The notes under the pieces: model-generated
The model's database searches: none
The model's input: the letters and a program-made list of their open reading frames with translations, nothing else
Told to the model about the DNA's origin: nothing
Program-made: the position numbers and the translations under genes
In this document: in pieces, positions 48,446 through 57,017 of the stretch
How positions within the stretch are numbered: position 1 is the stretch's first letter
Layout: each line of letters opens with the position of its first letter
Origin: Natrinema amylolyticum
GTDB taxonomy: Archaea > Halobacteriota > Halobacteria > Halobacteriales > Natrialbaceae
NCBI RefSeq assembly: GCF_020515625.1
Contig: NZ_JAIWPJ010000002.1
Span: forward strand, 930,001 to 994,000
Direction: 5' to 3'
Length of the DNA: 64,000 nucleotides

Positions 48446-49693
48446 TCACTCGTACAGTGGGTTCTCGTCGCACAGCGTCGCGACTTCGGCGCGAACCTCC
48501 TCGATAACGTCCTTGTCCTCGGGGGCGTCGACGACGCGAGCGATCAGGTCGCCGACCTCGCGACAGTCGTCCTCGTCGAAGCCGCGCGTGGTCAGCGCCG
48601 GCGTGCCGGCGCGGATTCCGCTCGGGTTGAACGGCGAGCGCGTCTCGCCGGGCACCGTGTTGCCGTTGAGGACGATGCCGGCGTCCTCTAAGGCCTCCTC
48701 GGCGTCGCCGCCGGAGGTGTCGGGGTGGCTGTCCCGCAGGTCGACGAGCACGAGGTGGTTGTCCGTGCCCTCGGAGACCAGCGAGAGGCCGTTCTCGGAG
48801 AGGGACTCGCCCAGTGCCTTCGCGTTCGCGACCGTCTGCTCGGCGTAGTCCTCGAACTCGGGCTCGAGCGCCTCTTTGAAGCCGACGGCCTTGCCGGCGA
48901 CGTTGTGCATGAGGGGGCCGCCCTGTCCGCCGGGGAAGACGGCAGCGTCGATATCGTCGGCGTACTCCTCGTCGCACATGACGATGCCGCCGCGACCGGA
49001 GCGGATGGTCTTGTGCGTCGAGCCGGTGACGAAGTCGGCGACGCCGACCGGCGAGGGGTGGACGCCGGCGGCGACGAGACCCGTAATGTGGGCGATATCC
49101 GCGAGGTGAAGCGCGTCGACGTCGTCGGCGGCGTCCTGAATGCGCTCCCACTCGATCTCGCGCGGGTACGCGGAGTAGCCCGAGACGATGATGTCGGGAT
49201 CGAACTCGGCGGCGTGGTCGGCGAGGTCGTCGTAGTCGATGTAGCCCGTCTCGGGGTCGACCTCGTACTGCTCGACCTCGTAGAGCTGGCCCGTGAAGTT
49301 CGCCGGGTGGCCGTGGCTGAGGTGGCCGCCGTGGTTCAGATCCAGCGACAGGATCTTGTCGCCCGGCTCGAGCATCGCGAAGTAGACCGACTGGTTGGCC
49401 TGCGTGCCCGAGTGGGGCTGGACGTTGACGTGCTCGGCACCGAACAGCTCCGTCGCGCGGTCGATCGCGAGCTGTTCGACCTCGTCAGCGTACTCGCAAC
49501 CGCCGTAGTAGCGCTCGCCGGGGTAGCCCTCGGCGTACTTGTTCGTCAGCGCGCTGCCCTGCGCGTCGATGACGGCCTCGCTGACGTGGTTCTCGCTGGC
49601 GATCATCTGTAACGTCTCTCGCTGGCGGTCTACCTCGCCCTCGAGCGCATCGGCGACGGCGGGATCGACGTCCCGAACCTGATCGTGGTTCAT
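48446..49693 (-). CDS. glyA: Serine hydroxymethyltransferase
   Basis: Interconverts serine and glycine, loading methylene-THF. Motifs: MIASENHVSEAVIDAQGSAL, EGYPGERYYGGCEYADEVEQ, NVQPHSGTQANQSVYFAMLE, ADIAHITGLVAAG, PLP lysine in VTGSTHKTIRSGRGGIVM. 415 residues. ATG 49693 gives MNHDQVRDVDPAVADALE. Works with FolD and ThyA in C1 metabolism. Confidence 0.95.
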   Translation of the reverse strand: MNHDQVRDVDPAVADALEGEVDRQRETLQMIASENHVSEAVIDAQGSALTNKYAEGYPGERYYGGCEYADEVEQLAIDRATELFGAEHVNVQPHSGTQANQSVYFAMLEPGDKILSLDLNHGGHLSHGHPANFTGQLYEVEQYEVDPETGYIDYDDLADHAAEFDPDIIVSGYSAYPREIEWERIQDAADDVDALHLADIAHITGLVAAGVHPSPVGVADFVTGSTHKTIRSGRGGIVMCDEEYADDIDAAVFPGGQGGPLMHNVAGKAVGFKEALEPEFEDYAEQTVANAKALGESLSENGLSLVSEGTDNHLVLVDLRDSHPDTSGGDAEEALEDAGIVLNGNTVPGETRSPFNPSGIRAGTPALTTRGFDEDDCREVGDLIARVVDAPEDKDVIEEVRAEVATLCDENPLYE

Positions 49694-49962
49694 ATCCGAA
49701 CTGCAGTCTGGCGGCCGCATAAGTGTACCCTTCCCCGGCAAGTGAGGCCACTATGCTGGCCGGTGGCCAGTGAACGTTCGCTCACCGTCCGCCCTCATCG
49801 ATGAACGCAACGGCTCGTTTGATACCGATCGACTCTCTAATGGAAGTATCTTCCCGAAATAACTGGTAGATATTATAACCGAGCGTGCCGATTACGGCAC
49901 CATTTGCCACTCTCTCACAGCCCGATACAACTAACTTGTCGCAGTGACATTCTCCCAACCGA
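49694..49962. other. Intergenic gap with a weak 42-codon minus-strand frame
   Basis: The divergent region between glyA and the CHAT gene. A GTG-initiated minus-strand frame (49782-49910) would encode VANGAVIGTLGYNIYQLFRE, then DTSIRESIGIKRAVAFIDEG and GR. The frame is plausible but there is no clear ribosome site and no recognisable family, so it is not called as a gene. An AT-rich patch near 49868-49880 may be promoter. Confidence 0.3.
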
Positions 49963-52140
49963 ATGATCGAGTGGGCGGTAGACGGCGACACCCTCCACGT
50001 CACCGACGCTGACAACGCCGAGTTGGCGGTCAACGGTGACGAACTCGACGTCAGCGCTTCCGACGTCGGCGTCTCGCGCCCGGTCGACGAGACGGTCGCC
50101 CTGACGACGGACGAACTCCGGTTCCCCCACGCGGTCGTCTACGCGTTCTCTCTCGGACTCGAGGAGCAGTACGAACTCGACCCCAGCGGAGAGCCGCTCG
50201 CGCTGTCACCCGGCGAGTACATCGTCGACATCGATACGGAGATCAAGGCGTACCTTCGGTTCGCCGGTGGGGCGACGATCGAAAAAACCGACGACTACGA
50301 GGAGATCGTCGTCTCCTTTCCGGAGCGAACGCGCGTCATCCTCGGCGTCCGCTGTCGCCACGAGTTCCCCGCCGGTACGATCACCGTGCCGGACTCCCCG
50401 TCCGCGATCGCCGAGGCCATCACTCACATGGCCGCCTCGCACAAGACCGACCGTCCGGACCGGTCGTACCCCACCCTCCGCGGCCACCCGTCGCTGATCG
50501 AACGCGGTAACGAACTCGAGATTTCCGACTGCATTCGGTCCGACACTCCGGATCACGGGATCGAACTGGTCGTTCCACCGGACTACGAATCCCTGTTCGT
50601 GACCGCACCGCTGGCGTACTACCTGCAGGCAACTGTCCGGACGACCGACGAGGGGCTCGGAAACCGATCCGGGGCCGACCTCGAGCGGCCGCGGCTCCGA
50701 CTCCGCGATCACGCCATCGAGGAGGAACTCTCGCCGATGCCAGACTTGGAGCGCGACGTCGAGCGACTGCTCCGAAAGACGTTCTTCCTCGACTGCCTGG
50801 TGCGCAACGCCGGTCCCTACGGAACGACCCTCTCGGAGCACAGCCTGCTCGCAGCGCTCGGCCTCGACGCCGACGTGCTGTATCACGCCTCACCGCAGGA
50901 TCGACTCGCGACGTATCTCGACGTCCCGTATGCGGCGATCAAACACCGCCTCCCGGAGTGGCACCTCTCGACGTACGTCGCCCCGGCCTACGACAGCGTC
51001 GAGACGCTGCCCTTCCTGCTCGACCGGCTGAGCATGATCTACACGCCCCGAACCTCCGAACTCGAGGGCCAAGAGCTGGTCGAACGCTCGCTCGAGGACT
51101 TCTATCGGGGTGAGGGCGGGCCCGCCGAACTCGCGTCCGGTATCGAGGCCGGACGCGCGGCCGAGCGCGGCGGCGATCCCGGTGCCGGTAGAGCCACCAC
51201 TGGGCAGGTCGCCTCGGTCGACATCGTCAAACCCGACCTCCGGAGCGGCCGTACCCACGGCTGGCTCGCGGACGGCGTTCCGATCGACGTCTTCAAATCG
51301 ACGCCCGCGGCCTACCACAACCGCCTGGACTTCCTCGAGCGGACGAGCGATTCGACCTCGATCTGTGTCGTCCTCAACGATCCGGAGATGGCCGGCGAAC
51401 ACGACGACGTCGCCGAGATCTATCGCCAGCGCTCCGAGGAACTCACGATGGATCTCACCGTTGCGGAGTCCCTCGAGACGGCCGACCTCGCCCGCATCTT
51501 AGAGGACGACAACGACTTCGTCCACTACATCGGCCACTGCGAAACCGGCGGGCTGTGCTGTCCCGACGGGACGCTCGCGACCTCGAGTCTCGATCGCTGT
51601 AACGCACAGACGTTCTTCCTGAACGCGTGTGGCTCCTTCTACGAGGGCATGAGCCTGATCGAGAAGGGGAGCGTCGCCGGTGCCGTCACGTTCACCAAGG
51701 TGTTGAACGACCACGCCGTCAAGGTCGGGTCGACGTTCGCCAAGCTACTGGTCCACGGCTTCAGCATCGAACGCGCGATGGGGCTCGCCCGCAGGCGGAT
51801 CATGATGGGCAAGGACTACGCCGTCGTCGGCGACGGCACCCACTCGCTCACCCAAGGCGAAAGCCGCAATCCGACGACCGCGCGACTCGAGGAACTCGAG
51901 GCGAGCGGGAGCGACCGGCGGTACCTGCTGACGCTCGATTGCTACTCGACGCGGGTGACCGGCTCGTACTACTTCCCGCACACCGAAACCAACGAGTACG
52001 CCTACCTCTGTGGGAACGAGTCGAGCTTTACGCTGTCGGAGCCAGAGCTGGCGACCATGCTCGAAGAGACGGAGGCGTCGGTGATATACGACGGCGATAT
52101 CTACTGGTCGAAAGAACTCAGCAAGCGGTTCGATCAGTGA
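49963..52140 (+). CDS. CHAT-domain (caspase-like protease) protein
   Basis: 725 residues. The N-terminal ~430 residues are unrecognised (beta-rich start MIEWAVDGDTLHVTD, then helical parts around 260-360). The C-terminal part is a CHAT caspase-like domain: FVHYIGHCETGGLCCPDG gives catalytic His525 and FFLNACGSFYEGMSLIEKGS gives Cys556, in the expected order and spacing, followed by VAGAVTFTKVLNDHAVKVGSTFAKLLVHG. An Arg/Gly-rich hinge lies at ~395-410. No signal, so cytoplasmic. CHAT proteases process partners such as gasdermins or CRISPR-associated proteins elsewhere; no such partner is adjacent. Confidence 0.78.
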   Translation: MIEWAVDGDTLHVTDADNAELAVNGDELDVSASDVGVSRPVDETVALTTDELRFPHAVVYAFSLGLEEQYELDPSGEPLALSPGEYIVDIDTEIKAYLRFAGGATIEKTDDYEEIVVSFPERTRVILGVRCRHEFPAGTITVPDSPSAIAEAITHMAASHKTDRPDRSYPTLRGHPSLIERGNELEISDCIRSDTPDHGIELVVPPDYESLFVTAPLAYYLQATVRTTDEGLGNRSGADLERPRLRLRDHAIEEELSPMPDLERDVERLLRKTFFLDCLVRNAGPYGTTLSEHSLLAALGLDADVLYHASPQDRLATYLDVPYAAIKHRLPEWHLSTYVAPAYDSVETLPFLLDRLSMIYTPRTSELEGQELVERSLEDFYRGEGGPAELASGIEAGRAAERGGDPGAGRATTGQVASVDIVKPDLRSGRTHGWLADGVPIDVFKSTPAAYHNRLDFLERTSDSTSICVVLNDPEMAGEHDDVAEIYRQRSEELTMDLTVAESLETADLARILEDDNDFVHYIGHCETGGLCCPDGTLATSSLDRCNAQTFFLNACGSFYEGMSLIEKGSVAGAVTFTKVLNDHAVKVGSTFAKLLVHGFSIERAMGLARRRIMMGKDYAVVGDGTHSLTQGESRNPTTARLEELEASGSDRRYLLTLDCYSTRVTGSYYFPHTETNEYAYLCGNESSFTLSEPELATMLEETEASVIYDGDIYWSKELSKRFDQ

Positions 52141-52510
52141 GCGGCTACGGCCCGCCGTAGGTACTGACTCGCTTCGCCCGCGCTGTTAACCGTCGCGACG
52201 TCCGGTCCGTTCTTCGCCCGTTCACTGCGCTCTCGACTAACTCCTGTACGACCCACCACAGTCGGTTGCGTCGAACGCCCATACGATATCGTAATAACAT
52301 GTTTTCGGTATATAGTTATTGTACGCTCGACTACAGATGTCCGTTCGCCACCGGTCGTCGATGGGACCCACCTCAACGACCGAGAGCGAGGAAGAGGGGG
52401 GAGGGGTTTTCGTCTCGCTACTACCGTAAGTGATATCACTCATTCATCGGCGAACTAACGAATTATAGGACAAAAATTACCGGTACAGGCCTCAGGGGAG
52501 AAGTTCTGGT
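52141..52510. other. Gap downstream of the CHAT gene
   Basis: 370 bases without a convincing gene. Contains an AT-rich inverted repeat (AATAAC...GTTATT around 52290-52320) and the promoter region of the next gene. A minus-strand frame at 52237-52443 (68 codons) was considered and not called. Confidence 0.4.
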
Positions 52511-52564: not shown

Positions 52565-53383
52565 ATGACCTCGAATTTACTTAACCACCAGATTGACGAT
52601 ATCCTCGAGTCCGTGCTCGAGGACGCGAGCGGCGATATCTACATGGTCAACCCGTCGCGGGACGCCATCGAAGAGTTCGTTTCCGTCGCGACCGCGTTCG
52701 ACGGCGACCTGCCGTCGGTACACATGCTCGCCGACGAACGAACGCTGAAAGACGTCATGGACGACTTCATCGTCGCCTCGAACGCCGCCGACCTCATCAG
52801 CGAGGGCGCGCTGTCGCTGCGAACGCTCGAGGAGGCCCCCGAGAACTCGCTGCTGGTCAGCGAGGACCGCGTCGTCGCGCTGGTCCACGCCGGCGACCGC
52901 GTCGGCGGGCTCACCACCGACGACGAGAGCTTCGTCGACGATACCTACGCCACCTACGCGGGTCGCTGGGAGGACGCCACCGACTTCAACCTCCGGACCC
53001 CGCCGATCACGGACGTCCGCGAAACGCTCTCCGACGAGATCAGTCCCGAGGCCGAGGCCGACTTCACCGCGATCCTGAACTCGCTCGAGACCGCTCGCGG
53101 CGACGGCGACGGGCTCGACGAGGTCACCATTTCCCTGCTCGTGGCCGCCAAGAACGAGGCCCTGCTGTACGACATCAGCAAGTGGGGCGAGGACGTCGGG
53201 ATCGCCTCCAAGGCGACGTTCTCCCGAACGAAGACCAAGCTCGAGGACATGGGTCTAATCGACACCGAGAAGGTCCCGATCGACGTCGGCCGCCCGCGCC
53301 TGCGCCTCAAGATCGGCGACGAGCGCCTCAGCGAGGCCGACAACGGCCAGCTCGCGACGGTGGCGCAGTCGATTCTCAACTAA
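52565..53383 (+). CDS. tbsP: TbsP-like transcriptional regulator (DUF5821)
   Basis: 272 residues, haloarchaeal family. N-terminal domain: LLNHQIDDILESVLEDASGD, IYMVNPSRDAIEEFVSVATA and HMLADERTLKDVMDDFIVAS. C-terminal winged helix: VTISLLVAAKNEALLYDISK, then GIASKATFSRTKTKLEDMGL and DVGRPRLRLKIGD, a classical HTH. It matches my recollection of TbsP, which in Haloferax volcanii acts with TrmB on gapII and gluconeogenic control. ATG 52565 chosen; an ttaagtac box 30 bases upstream fits a leaderless transcript. Confidence 0.72.
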   Translation: MTSNLLNHQIDDILESVLEDASGDIYMVNPSRDAIEEFVSVATAFDGDLPSVHMLADERTLKDVMDDFIVASNAADLISEGALSLRTLEEAPENSLLVSEDRVVALVHAGDRVGGLTTDDESFVDDTYATYAGRWEDATDFNLRTPPITDVRETLSDEISPEAEADFTAILNSLETARGDGDGLDEVTISLLVAAKNEALLYDISKWGEDVGIASKATFSRTKTKLEDMGLIDTEKVPIDVGRPRLRLKIGDERLSEADNGQLATVAQSILN

Positions 53384-53454: not shown

Positions 53455-53668
53455 GATCAAAAGCACTCCTCCCTCCCCTACGGGTCGGTCGTCGGCCCGC
53501 TCGCTCACTTCGTTCGCTCGCGGTGGATTACAGGTAAGCGCCTGCCCTCCCCCGAGTCGCGTGCCCTCACGTTCGTTCGGGCCCGCTCCCGGCCACGGCG
53601 TTCTCCAGTTGGTTTTCTACGGTTTCTATGGCGCAAACCCCAAGTCCTCGCCGTGCGACGGTTCGCGT

Positions 53669-54373
53669 ATGTACGAGGCCGTCCACGCCCATCCCGACGG
53701 ACAGAGCACGGTCGCCAGGTTCGCGAAGACGGCGGCCGACTACGGCTACGAGGGCGTGGTCGTGCGCAATCACGGCGACGCTCGAGCGGCGTACGATCCC
53801 GAAGCGATCCGCGAGGAGTACGGGATCGACGTCGTCGAGGGCGTCGAGATTCGGGCCGACGACCCGCAGCAGGCGAGCGGGTCGGTAGGGAACTATCGGA
53901 CGTCGGAGACGATCGTCGGCATCCACGGCGGGACGAACGGGCTGAACCGCTTCGCCGTCGAACAGCCGAAGGTCGACGTGCTCGCACACCCGATGACCGA
54001 TGGCGGCGACATCAATCACGTGCTGGCGAAAGCCGCCGTCGAGAACGGTGTTCGGATCGAATTCAATCTCTCCGGAGTCCTGCGAGAGAGCGGCGGCCAC
54101 CGCGTCCGGGTCGTACAGTCGCTGCGAAAGCTTCAGGAGATCGTCGACCACTACGACGCGCCCTACGTCGTGAGCGCCGATCCGACCTCGCACCTCGAGC
54201 TGCGGGTACCCCGCGAACTGAAAGCCCTCGGCGAGCAGATCGGCTTCGCTCCCGAATTCATCGAGGACGGGCTCGCGGAGTGGGGCCGGCTGGCCGAGCG
54301 CAACCGCCACGTCGACTCCGAGTCGTTCATTGAGCCGGGGGTCGAACGTGGCAGGTATGAAGAAGAGTCTTGA
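53669..54373 (+). CDS. rnp3: RNase P protein component 3 (Rpp30)
   Basis: Archaeal Rpp30-type subunit of RNase P, a TIM-barrel-like fold, 234 residues. Motifs: YEAVHAHPDGQSTVARFAKT, GYEGVVVRNHGDA, VVEGVEIRADDPQQASGSVG, QPKVDVLAHPMTDGGDINHV, GVRIEFNLSGVL, APYVVSADPTSHLELR. ATG 53669 chosen by family fit. It starts the superoperon with a methyltransferase, Pop5 and psmA, overlapping the methyltransferase start by 17 bases. Confidence 0.9.
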   Translation: MYEAVHAHPDGQSTVARFAKTAADYGYEGVVVRNHGDARAAYDPEAIREEYGIDVVEGVEIRADDPQQASGSVGNYRTSETIVGIHGGTNGLNRFAVEQPKVDVLAHPMTDGGDINHVLAKAAVENGVRIEFNLSGVLRESGGHRVRVVQSLRKLQEIVDHYDAPYVVSADPTSHLELRVPRELKALGEQIGFAPEFIEDGLAEWGRLAERNRHVDSESFIEPGVERGRYEEES

Positions 54374-54989
54374 GGAGCACGCCGCGCGGTTCGACGAGAA
54401 GGCCGGCGAGTACGACGACTCGAAGTCCAAGGAGTACCACGCCTGTGCGAACCTCGTCGTCGAGCACGCCGCTCCCGCGGCCGACGACGTCGTCCTCGAT
54501 CTGGCGACCGGGACCGGCGCGATCGCGCTCGCGCTGGCCCCCGACGCGAAGCGGGTCGTGGGCCGCGACATCAGCGAGGAGATGATGGCCGAAGCCGAGG
54601 AGAAGGCCGACGACGAAGGCCTCGAGAACCTCGCGTTCGATCACGGGAGCTTTCGGGAACCGAACTACGACGGCCCGGTCGATATCGTCACCTCGAACTT
54701 CGCTCTGCACCACCTCTCGGACGAGGAAAAGCGCGAGGCGATCGCGGTCATCGCCGACCTGGAGCCGCGCAAATTCGTGCTCGGGGACGTGATGTTCTTC
54801 GGCGAGCCGGATCCGGACGCGCCCTTCTACTCGCCCGAGGTCGACGATCCGGCGACCGTCGGCGTGCTCGCGGACGCCTTCACAGACGCCGGCTTCTCGC
54901 TGACGGCCGTCGAGCGCGTCCACGATCAGGTGGGCGTACTGGTCGCCGAACGGAGCCCGACCGCGGTCGACGCAACGACCGACGAATGA
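54357..54989 (+). CDS. Class I SAM-dependent methyltransferase
   Basis: 210 residues with Rossmann-type SAM motif VLDLATGTGAIALALAP, acidic second strand (VVGRDISEEMMAEAEEKA), motif FDHGSFREP and DIVTSNFALHHLSDEEKREA. Wedged between two RNase P subunits and overlapping both, a placement seen in haloarchaea. This context suggests a tRNA/RNA or translation-related target, but the sequence alone does not tell. Confidence 0.85.
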   Translation: MKKSLEEHAARFDEKAGEYDDSKSKEYHACANLVVEHAAPAADDVVLDLATGTGAIALALAPDAKRVVGRDISEEMMAEAEEKADDEGLENLAFDHGSFREPNYDGPVDIVTSNFALHHLSDEEKREAIAVIADLEPRKFVLGDVMFFGEPDPDAPFYSPEVDDPATVGVLADAFTDAGFSLTAVERVHDQVGVLVAERSPTAVDATTDE

Positions 54990-55471
54990 AACACCTCCCG
55001 AAGCACCTCCGCCCGCGCTGGCGATACCTCGCGGTCGAACTCGAGACGTGGCCGGACGAGCGGATCGGTAGGCGATCGTTCCAGCGGGAACTGTGGTATG
55101 CGGGCCAGAACCTGCTGGGCGATCCGGGCAGCGCCGACGCCGATCTGTCGGTCGTCAGGTTCGAGTTCGCCGACGGAACCGGCGAAGCGATCGTTAAAGT
55201 CCGCCGCGGGGAGACCGAACCCGCTCGAGCGGCGCTGGCCTGTATCGATGGAATCGACGGCGCTCCCCTCGGGATTCGGGTCCGCGGTATCAGTGGCACG
55301 ATCCGTGCCGCTGAAGAAAACTATTTAGGACGCGCCGGGCAAGATTCGGGAGAGAGAAACGTCGTGTTCGGGAACGAAGAGCGAGTCGCCGTCCTGCGGG
55401 ACGGCGTTGGGGACGTGCGACTCGATGAGGCGTTCGTGGGCGCGACAGACCTCGATTACCATTTAGTGTGA
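54986..55471 (+). CDS. rnp2: RNase P protein component 2 (Pop5)
   Basis: Archaeal Pop5-type RNase P subunit. N-terminus [19 protein letters not shown] and [18 protein letters not shown] are characteristic; the ferredoxin-like fold continues [20 protein letters not shown]. 161 residues, with a halophile-type tail ([20 protein letters not shown]). ATG overlaps the methyltransferase stop (ATGA). psmA begins 4 bases after its stop. Confidence 0.88.
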
Positions 55472-55475
55472 TACT

Positions 55476-56078
55476 ATGCAGGGACAACAACAACAGCAGG
55501 CGTACGACCGCGGCATCACGATCTTCTCGCCCGACGGCCGACTCTACCAGGTCGAGTACGCTCGTGAGGCGGTCAAACGAGGCACGGCGAGTATCGGAGT
55601 CCGAACGAACGACGGCGTCGTCCTCGCGGTCGACAAACGAGTTCCCTCCCCGCTGCTCGAGGACTCGAGCGTCGAGAAGATTCACAAGGCCGACGACCAC
55701 GTCGGTATCGCCAGCGCGGGCCACGTGGCCGACGCCCGCCAGCTGATCGACTTCGCACGCCGCCAGACGCAGGTCAACCAGCTGCGCTACGGCGAGCCCA
55801 TTGGCGTCGAGACGCTGACCAAGGAAGTCACCGACCACATCCAGCAGTACACCCAGGTCGGCGGTGCCCGACCGTTCGGTGTCGCGCTGATCGTCGGCGG
55901 CATCGACAACGGCGAACCGCGCCTGTTCGAGACCGACCCCTCGGGGACCCCCTACGAGTGGAAGGCGCTGGCCGTCGGTTCCGACCGCGGCGAACTCCAG
56001 ACCTACCTCGAGGAGAACGACCTCCTCGATACGGGCGAGAGCGAGGACGAGGACGCAGACGACGAACCTGCCGAGTAA
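55476..56078 (+). CDS. psmA: Proteasome alpha subunit, C-terminally shortened
   Basis: Alpha-ring subunit of the 20S proteasome. The N-terminal gate and helix H0 are intact ([20 protein letters not shown]), followed by [20 protein letters not shown] and [20 protein letters not shown]. The family continues after [12 protein letters not shown] with helices and strands for ~50 more residues (H4, S9, S10). Here the sequence jumps to [20 protein letters not shown], resembling the final helix and acidic tail. Total 200 residues against the usual ~230-255. The frame is intact. Either a real in-frame deletion (possibly between two YLEEN-like segments) or an assembly artefact. Haloarchaea often have a second alpha subunit. 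Confidence 0.88.
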
Positions 56079-56291
56079 TCGAGACGCCACGTGCGGTTTC
56101 CGACGCCGTTTTCCGCAGTCACTGCGCGAGGAGCGCCCCGCTCGACGGTCGTGATCGGCGAGGGAGACGATCAGGGGCTCGATCGCATCGAGACGGCGAC
56201 CGCACCGACCCGATACGGCCCGGTGCGTTTCGACCGCGATACCGGATCAGTTCGGGAAACACTCTTTTCATTGGCGGGGGAACCGTCAGGT
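56079..56291. other. Gap between psmA and SBDS, open in the SBDS frame
   Basis: The SBDS frame is open back to 56091 and reads coding-like (VVIGEGDDQGLDRIETATAP), but SBDS proteins begin at M-I-S-L-D-E-A. The stretch could be a short leader peptide, a 5' UTR or a decayed gene. No other content seen. Confidence 0.3.
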
Positions 56292-57017
56292 ATGATTTCG
56301 CTTGACGAGGCAGTGACGGCGCGACTCGAGTCCCACGGGGCGCGCTTCGAAGTGTTAGTCGACCCGGACGCGGCGCTCGAAATCAAACGCGACGAGTTCG
56401 AGGGGGATCTCGAAGACGTGATCGCCGCCGAGGACGTCTTCGAGGACGCCTCCCGCGGTGATCGGCCCGCCGAGGCCGACCTTGAGAAGGTCTTCGATAC
56501 CACGGAGCCGCTGGAGATCATCCCCCAGGTGATCAAGCAGGGAGAGATCCAGATCACGGCCGATCAGCGCCGCGAGATGCAAGAACAGAAGCGAAAGCAG
56601 TTGATCGACACGATCACGCGCAACGCGGTCAACCCGCAGATGGACAACGCGCCCCATCCGCCCGAACGGATCGAGAACGCCTTAGAGGAGGCCGGCTTCA
56701 CCGTCGATCCGATGGAGCCGGTTCAGGAGCAGGTCGACGACGCCTTAGACGCGCTGCGGCCGATCATCCCGATCCGGTTCGAGGAGGTCACCGTCGCCGT
56801 GCAGGTGCCGGCCGACCACGCCGGCAGCGCGCAGGCGAAGATCCGCCAGTTCGGCGATCTCGAGCGCGAGGAGTGGCAGGGCGACGGCTCGTGGATCGGC
56901 GTGCTCACGTTCCCGGCCGGCCTGCAAAACGAGTTCTACGACACCGTCAACGAACACACCAGCGGCAACGCGGAGACGGAGATCGTCAAAGACAAAGACG
57001 ATCTTCGAACGCGATAA
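56292..57017 (+). CDS. Ribosome maturation protein SBDS
   Basis: Archaeal Sdo1/SBDS homologue, 241 residues, which with EF-2-like GTPases releases the anti-association factor from the large subunit. Motifs: MISLDEAVTARLESHGARFE (FYSH domain start), DVIAAEDVFEDASRGDRP, LEIIPQVIKQGEIQITADQR, NAVNPQMDNAPHPPERIENA, then the ferredoxin-like C-terminal domain (RFEEVTVAVQVPADHAGSAQ). Start at 56292 fits the family. Same strand and block as RNase P and proteasome genes, as in many archaea. Confidence 0.93.
   Translation: MISLDEAVTARLESHGARFEVLVDPDAALEIKRDEFEGDLEDVIAAEDVFEDASRGDRPAEADLEKVFDTTEPLEIIPQVIKQGEIQITADQRREMQEQKRKQLIDTITRNAVNPQMDNAPHPPERIENALEEAGFTVDPMEPVQEQVDDALDALRPIIPIRFEEVTVAVQVPADHAGSAQAKIRQFGDLEREEWQGDGSWIGVLTFPAGLQNEFYDTVNEHTSGNAETEIVKDKDDLRTR

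Follow-up and report, generated by a model that had tools for sequence, protein, structure and literature searches.

CHAT proteases serve CRISPR-linked defence in two of the closest systems described, namely the SAVED-CHAT protease associated with type III CRISPR (PDB entry 8tl0) and Csx29, the TPR-CHAT protease of Craspase. By cleaving Csx30, which inhibits the sigma factor CASP-sigma, Csx29 sets this factor free, and so provides a precedent for CHAT proteases that act on transcription (PMC10028731). Separase shares the clan CD fold, and gingipain R (peptidase family C25) is a further structural relative, secreted by bacteria. For H. volcanii, Seth-Pasricha et al. described a caspase-like activity that is dominant and sensitive to zVAD; they stated that clear homologues are missing from archaeal genomes (PMC3615174). 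Proteases of the CHAT kind are already known; for the order-wide family, the N-terminal architecture and the pairing with TbsP-family regulators reported here, the literature searches gave no earlier description, and they also yielded nothing on a CHAT domain in haloarchaea or Haloferax.

We analysed a window of 64,000 nucleotides from Natrinema amylolyticum, in which a CHAT-type protease gene lies between a divergent glyA and a gene for a TbsP-family transcriptional regulator (Table 1). TbsP belongs to a haloarchaeal regulator family (DUF5821) and, as cited in PMC13286277, acts together with TrmB in H. volcanii to control gapII and the metabolism of glucose. No protease link of TbsP was described in the literature that we found.

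Table 1. Features of the protease gene and its surroundings (positions in the window).
Feature	Position	Strand	Remarks
glyA, encoding serine hydroxymethyltransferase; divergent gene that serves as synteny marker	48446..49741	-	conserved context
CHAT-type protease ORF, 725 aa	49963..52140	+	ATG start
Residues 1-134, all-beta sandwich domain, possible sensor	49963..50364	+	borderline fold match, Z 8.4
Residues 140-372, conserved alpha/beta domain	50380..51078	+	predicted structure, alignment ranges
Residues 376-418, low-confidence linker	51088..51216	+	pLDDT under 50
Residues 455-636, CHAT protease core	51325..51870	+	8tl0 profile E 2.7e-6; Z 18.7
His525, predicted catalytic, CAC codon	51535-51537	+	in register with 8tl0 His; conserved
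Cys533, invariant second cysteine of the family	51559-51561	+	207/207 aligned rows with a residue there
Cys556, predicted catalytic nucleophile, TGT codon	51628-51630	+	in register with 8tl0 Cys; conserved
Residues 637-725, C-terminal alpha/beta cap	51871..52137	+	predicted structure
TACGATATCGTA, perfect palindrome between protease and tbsP	52282..52293	.	candidate regulator site
TbsP transcriptional regulator (NF047393; TbsP_N + HTH_TbsP_C), conserved partner gene	52565..53383	+	own ATG at 52565

The CHAT core and its predicted catalytic dyad

The start codon of the window protease (MIEW...) is common to its orthologues, and the N-terminus, MIEWAVDG, has no obvious signal peptide. Searched as a single sequence, the protein was matched by nothing in Pfam, NCBIfam, PADLOC or the PDB, which accounts for the label 'hypothetical protein' on most of its relatives; 'caspase family protein' and 'CHAT domain-containing protein' are isolated annotations. 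However, a profile of residues 455-636 built from 37 relatives and compared with PDB retrieved the SAVED-CHAT protease 8tl0 (E = 2.7e-6), and the segments YIGH525 and LNAC556 were aligned with FIGH and LNAC of that protein. A weak match of the full-length profile's N-terminal part to a gingipain chain (PDB, E = 0.097) was treated as chance.

An AlphaFold model of the full-length protein was built with 24 relatives (mean pLDDT 85, pTM 0.83). With it Foldseek found SAVED-CHAT 8tl0 (8.4e-8), separase (2.5e-7) and gingipain (1.7e-5). In VIA-align comparisons the model was superimposed on 8tl0 with Z 18.7 (168 residues aligned, 2.3 A), on gingipain with Z 18.1 (242 residues, 2.7 A, over residues 332-669), on separase with Z 17.4 (225 residues, 4.1 A) and on Csx29 with Z 13.5. 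The caspase-haemoglobinase fold of CHAT and other clan CD cysteine peptidases was therefore recovered with Z 17.4-18.7. In the model, His525 and Cys556 are each predicted to stand just after the end of a beta strand, at neighbouring strand ends and in motifs of the GH and NAC type, as in clan CD peptidases.

Both residues were retained in 179 of the 180 distinct relatives that span the two sites, in both deep clades of the family. The original prediction of a CHAT-type cysteine protease with the dyad in the active arrangement is thus borne out by the 8tl0 profile, the predicted fold and this conservation; the loss of His or Cys in orthologues, which it had named as counting against it, did not occur. 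In the sole exception (L068:7040-9100, minus strand, family f25) neither catalytic residue is kept; this distant relative, one of four from outside Halobacteriales, is likely a pseudoprotease. The invariant Cys533 sits between the catalytic His and Cys and could have a redox, metal or substrate-pocket role.

The query was not matched by PF12770 above the curated cut-off, which is a matter of annotation and not of biochemistry, and 4 of 24 relatives matched this model, at best with E = 0.0016. We attribute the miss to the limited reach of the model; the core profile and the fold matches are independent evidence. PF12770 also gave no match in the H. volcanii control genome; it misses this CHAT family and is hence uninformative. 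By fold class and conserved dyad the gene product is a predicted cysteine endopeptidase of the CHAT family (clan CD), and probably a soluble one.

The N-terminal region

The N-terminal ~430 residues had been described as matching no known domain and as a possible sensor, and this description held: no model of Pfam, NCBIfam or PADLOC matched them, and they are folded in the structure prediction. Predicted alone (pLDDT 92), this part comprised an all-beta sandwich (residues 1-134) and an alpha/beta domain (residues 140-372). In fold comparisons the sandwich weakly resembled the 'supersandwich' of galactose mutarotase/beta-galactosidase and the periplasmic domain of YidC, the best match being borderline (Z 8.4, 122 residues aligned, 3.1 A), and sugar binding is not claimed from it. 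Several alignments with separase and Csx29 in the full-length comparison begin at residues 147-214. These alignment ranges suggest that residues 140-372 of the model may correspond to the pseudo-protease half of those proteins. The N-terminal part may serve as a sensor.

The protein thus shares with SAVED-CHAT 8tl0 the CHAT core and the aligned His and Cys, but has other N-terminal domains. The query did not match the SAVED family, and the fold comparison placed its N-terminus in the beta-sandwich class only, with a borderline Z and residues 140-372 barely covered. Moreover, no CRISPR genes were found among the neighbouring genes examined. Csx29 likewise joins a large N-terminal part to a CHAT protease; unlike Csx29, the haloarchaeal protease has no recognised TPR, no Cas7-11 gene was found among its neighbours, and its partner is a TbsP-family regulator instead of Csx30/CASP-sigma. 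Separase is similar in its clan CD fold and in the matches that start in the N-terminal alpha/beta region, but there is neither a sequence match nor a cohesin link. Gingipain gave a long alignment, yet it is a secreted protein.

Distribution and phylogeny of the family

Relatives of the protease were present in 268 of the 293 Halobacteriales genomes (238 of the 255 good ones), and in the phylum sample matches outside this order came only from four genomes of one family. The window's own genome has two copies, Natrinema species head the list of named clade A orthologues, and some paralogues are plasmid-borne. No relatives were found in a viral contig collection.

A tree of 87 relatives separated two deep clades, A, which includes the window gene, and B. 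A TbsP-family neighbour accompanied 46 of the 59 tree rows in clade A and all 30 rows in the orthologue clade of the window gene, while a DUF7504 neighbour (its identity confirmed by Pfam) was found in 13 of the 25 clade B rows. The neighbour labels changed far fewer times on the tree than in shuffles. The 'stand-alone' protease of the original prediction therefore proved to be one with conserved neighbours in both clades.

DUF7504 genes lie directly upstream of the clade B CHAT genes at loci L047, L049, L051, L053, L056 and L057 and also at L073, L086, L258, L259 and L262-L276, which makes a second conserved two-gene cassette. One DUF7504 neighbour matched weakly the Elp4-like PAXNEB family, hinting at a RecA-like fold, and HalX response regulators or PAS/GAF histidine kinases occur near some clade B loci. 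In one genus, probably Haloferax as judged from sequence, exactly one DUF7504-CHAT pair of clade B, with the motif GH...NAC, was present in all 15 genomes; one of these showed 93% DNA identity over 2.4 kb to an H. mediterranei plasmid.

Pairing of the protease with TbsP-family regulators

On the chromosomes of many families the protease gene is fixed between glyA and tbsP. The original prediction saw no substrate gene adjacent, which needs correction in that a same-strand TbsP-family regulator gene follows directly downstream in 73 of the 80 named orthologues; in three of the seven exceptions less than 3 kb of contig sequence was left. Divergent glyA was found upstream in 76 of the 80. The gap between protease and tbsP is 126-800 bp, and the two genes are for this reason probably not one transcript.

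As a control, we inspected genomes without a clade A protease. In most of those checked, glyA and tbsP were direct neighbours, often with ycaO next. Inherited synteny could thus explain the adjacency at this locus, which alone proves little. Since TbsP is present in genomes without a clade A protease, it is also independent of the protease. The glyA-CHAT-tbsP arrangement was therefore abandoned as a strong sign of functional linkage, and we relied on scattered paralogues instead.

An unusual parallel expansion of both families was noticed in a Haloferacaceae-type genus (G251, G535-G537; loci L226-L255), whose genomes each have about 9-13 protease-profile matches and 11-23 TbsP_N matches.

A TbsP_N gene adjoined the protease gene at 4 of 11 and at 5 of 9 scattered loci of this genus, where 0.26 was expected (p about 1e-4 in the first case and under 1e-4 in the second); some protease paralogues had no TbsP neighbour. 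In addition, protease and regulator distances were correlated over 16 paralogous pairs (Mantel r 0.81, p 0.0002), and on a plasmid of Halobaculum salinum a protease gene and a TbsP-family gene are paired divergently. Adjacency beyond background synteny is thus indicated by the G251 genus, by the tree clades and by the co-diversification. The linked paralogues may owe their pairing to duplication of whole blocks.

Proposed function and alternative explanations

We propose, at what we consider about an even chance of being right, that the gene product is a cytoplasmic, N-terminally gated regulatory CHAT protease that takes part in metabolic or stress control together with regulators of the TbsP type. 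The beta-sandwich and the alpha/beta domain would probably perceive a signal and keep the protease switched off. On signal, the protease would cleave or otherwise modify a pathway protein, either a TbsP-controlled protein or TbsP itself, the latter being one candidate, and would in this way change the transcription of metabolic genes. A signal-gated protease in a TbsP-linked circuit is favoured by analogy with Csx29 and because of the role ascribed to TbsP and TrmB in glucose metabolism.

The long gap to tbsP, the adjacency of glyA and tbsP in many genomes without the protease, and the existence of clade B relatives that work without TbsP would suit an active regulatory or housekeeping CHAT protease whose substrate lies elsewhere and to which TbsP is merely a syntenic neighbour. 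We regard this as possible, although not probable, as TbsP_N neighbours recur independently, beside scattered paralogues and on a plasmid, and proteases and regulators have diversified together. Gene context does in part point to a housekeeping role, which the original prediction had named as evidence against a signalling or defence protease. It is unlikely that the protease accounts for the bulk caspase-like activity of haloarchaea as a housekeeping enzyme of protein quality control or salt stress. Such a role is suggested by the very high zVAD-sensitive activity of Haloferax extracts, for which there is no known gene (PMC3615174), and by the clade B member with its GH...NAC motif in every genome of the probable Haloferax genus. 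However, Haloferax-type genomes carry clade B and not the clade A of the window gene, CHAT proteases need not cut after Asp, and the proteasome was raised as a possible source by PMC3615174 itself.

The suggestion of a programmed-death or anti-virus protease, made in the original prediction, fits the CRISPR-linked use of 8tl0 and Csx29 and the occurrence of some paralogues on plasmids, but did not survive the comparison well. The protein had no PADLOC match, its ten neighbours matched only generic methyltransferase and GTPase models of PADLOC and contained no defence system, viral contigs had no relatives, and the family is near-universal in its order with a fixed chromosomal place between glyA and tbsP. 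We consider this role very unlikely. Even less probable is a role as signalling scaffold, caspase-like in fold but not proteolytic, to which the dyad-less L068 could be a pointer, given that His and Cys are otherwise invariant across very wide divergence.

Should the TbsP link of the gated regulatory protease be true, control of transcription by a caspase-type protease would be a normal archaeal metabolic device, not confined to CRISPR or death devices, and a largely chromosomal family, instead of mobile defence systems, would offer the record from which to trace how CHAT proteases evolved. Moreover, the haloarchaeal CHAT family supplies candidate genes for the orphan caspase-like activity, which can be deleted in genetically tractable hosts, and is a natural candidate for the enzyme behind this 'caspase activity'. 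A broader and rather doubtful picture is that of an order-wide ancient CHAT family of two-gene switches, in which clade A would cleave or otherwise control a TbsP-type factor and clade B would act with DUF7504 near two-component genes, the family at the same time being the source of haloarchaeal caspase-like activity.

Sequences around tbsP

The palindrome TACGATATCGTA upstream of tbsP is followed by a TATA-like stretch and adjoins a block that is partly conserved in Natrinema, and could be an autoregulatory site. In other families a gene with a YcaO domain stands beside tbsP as a conserved link (L170-L174, L176, L178-L183 and L079). In the window, tbsP is followed by genes for RNase P (rpp30, pop5), proteasome alpha and Sdo1 (53630-57017), an arrangement that in its full form was seen only at some Natrialbaceae loci (L032-L034).
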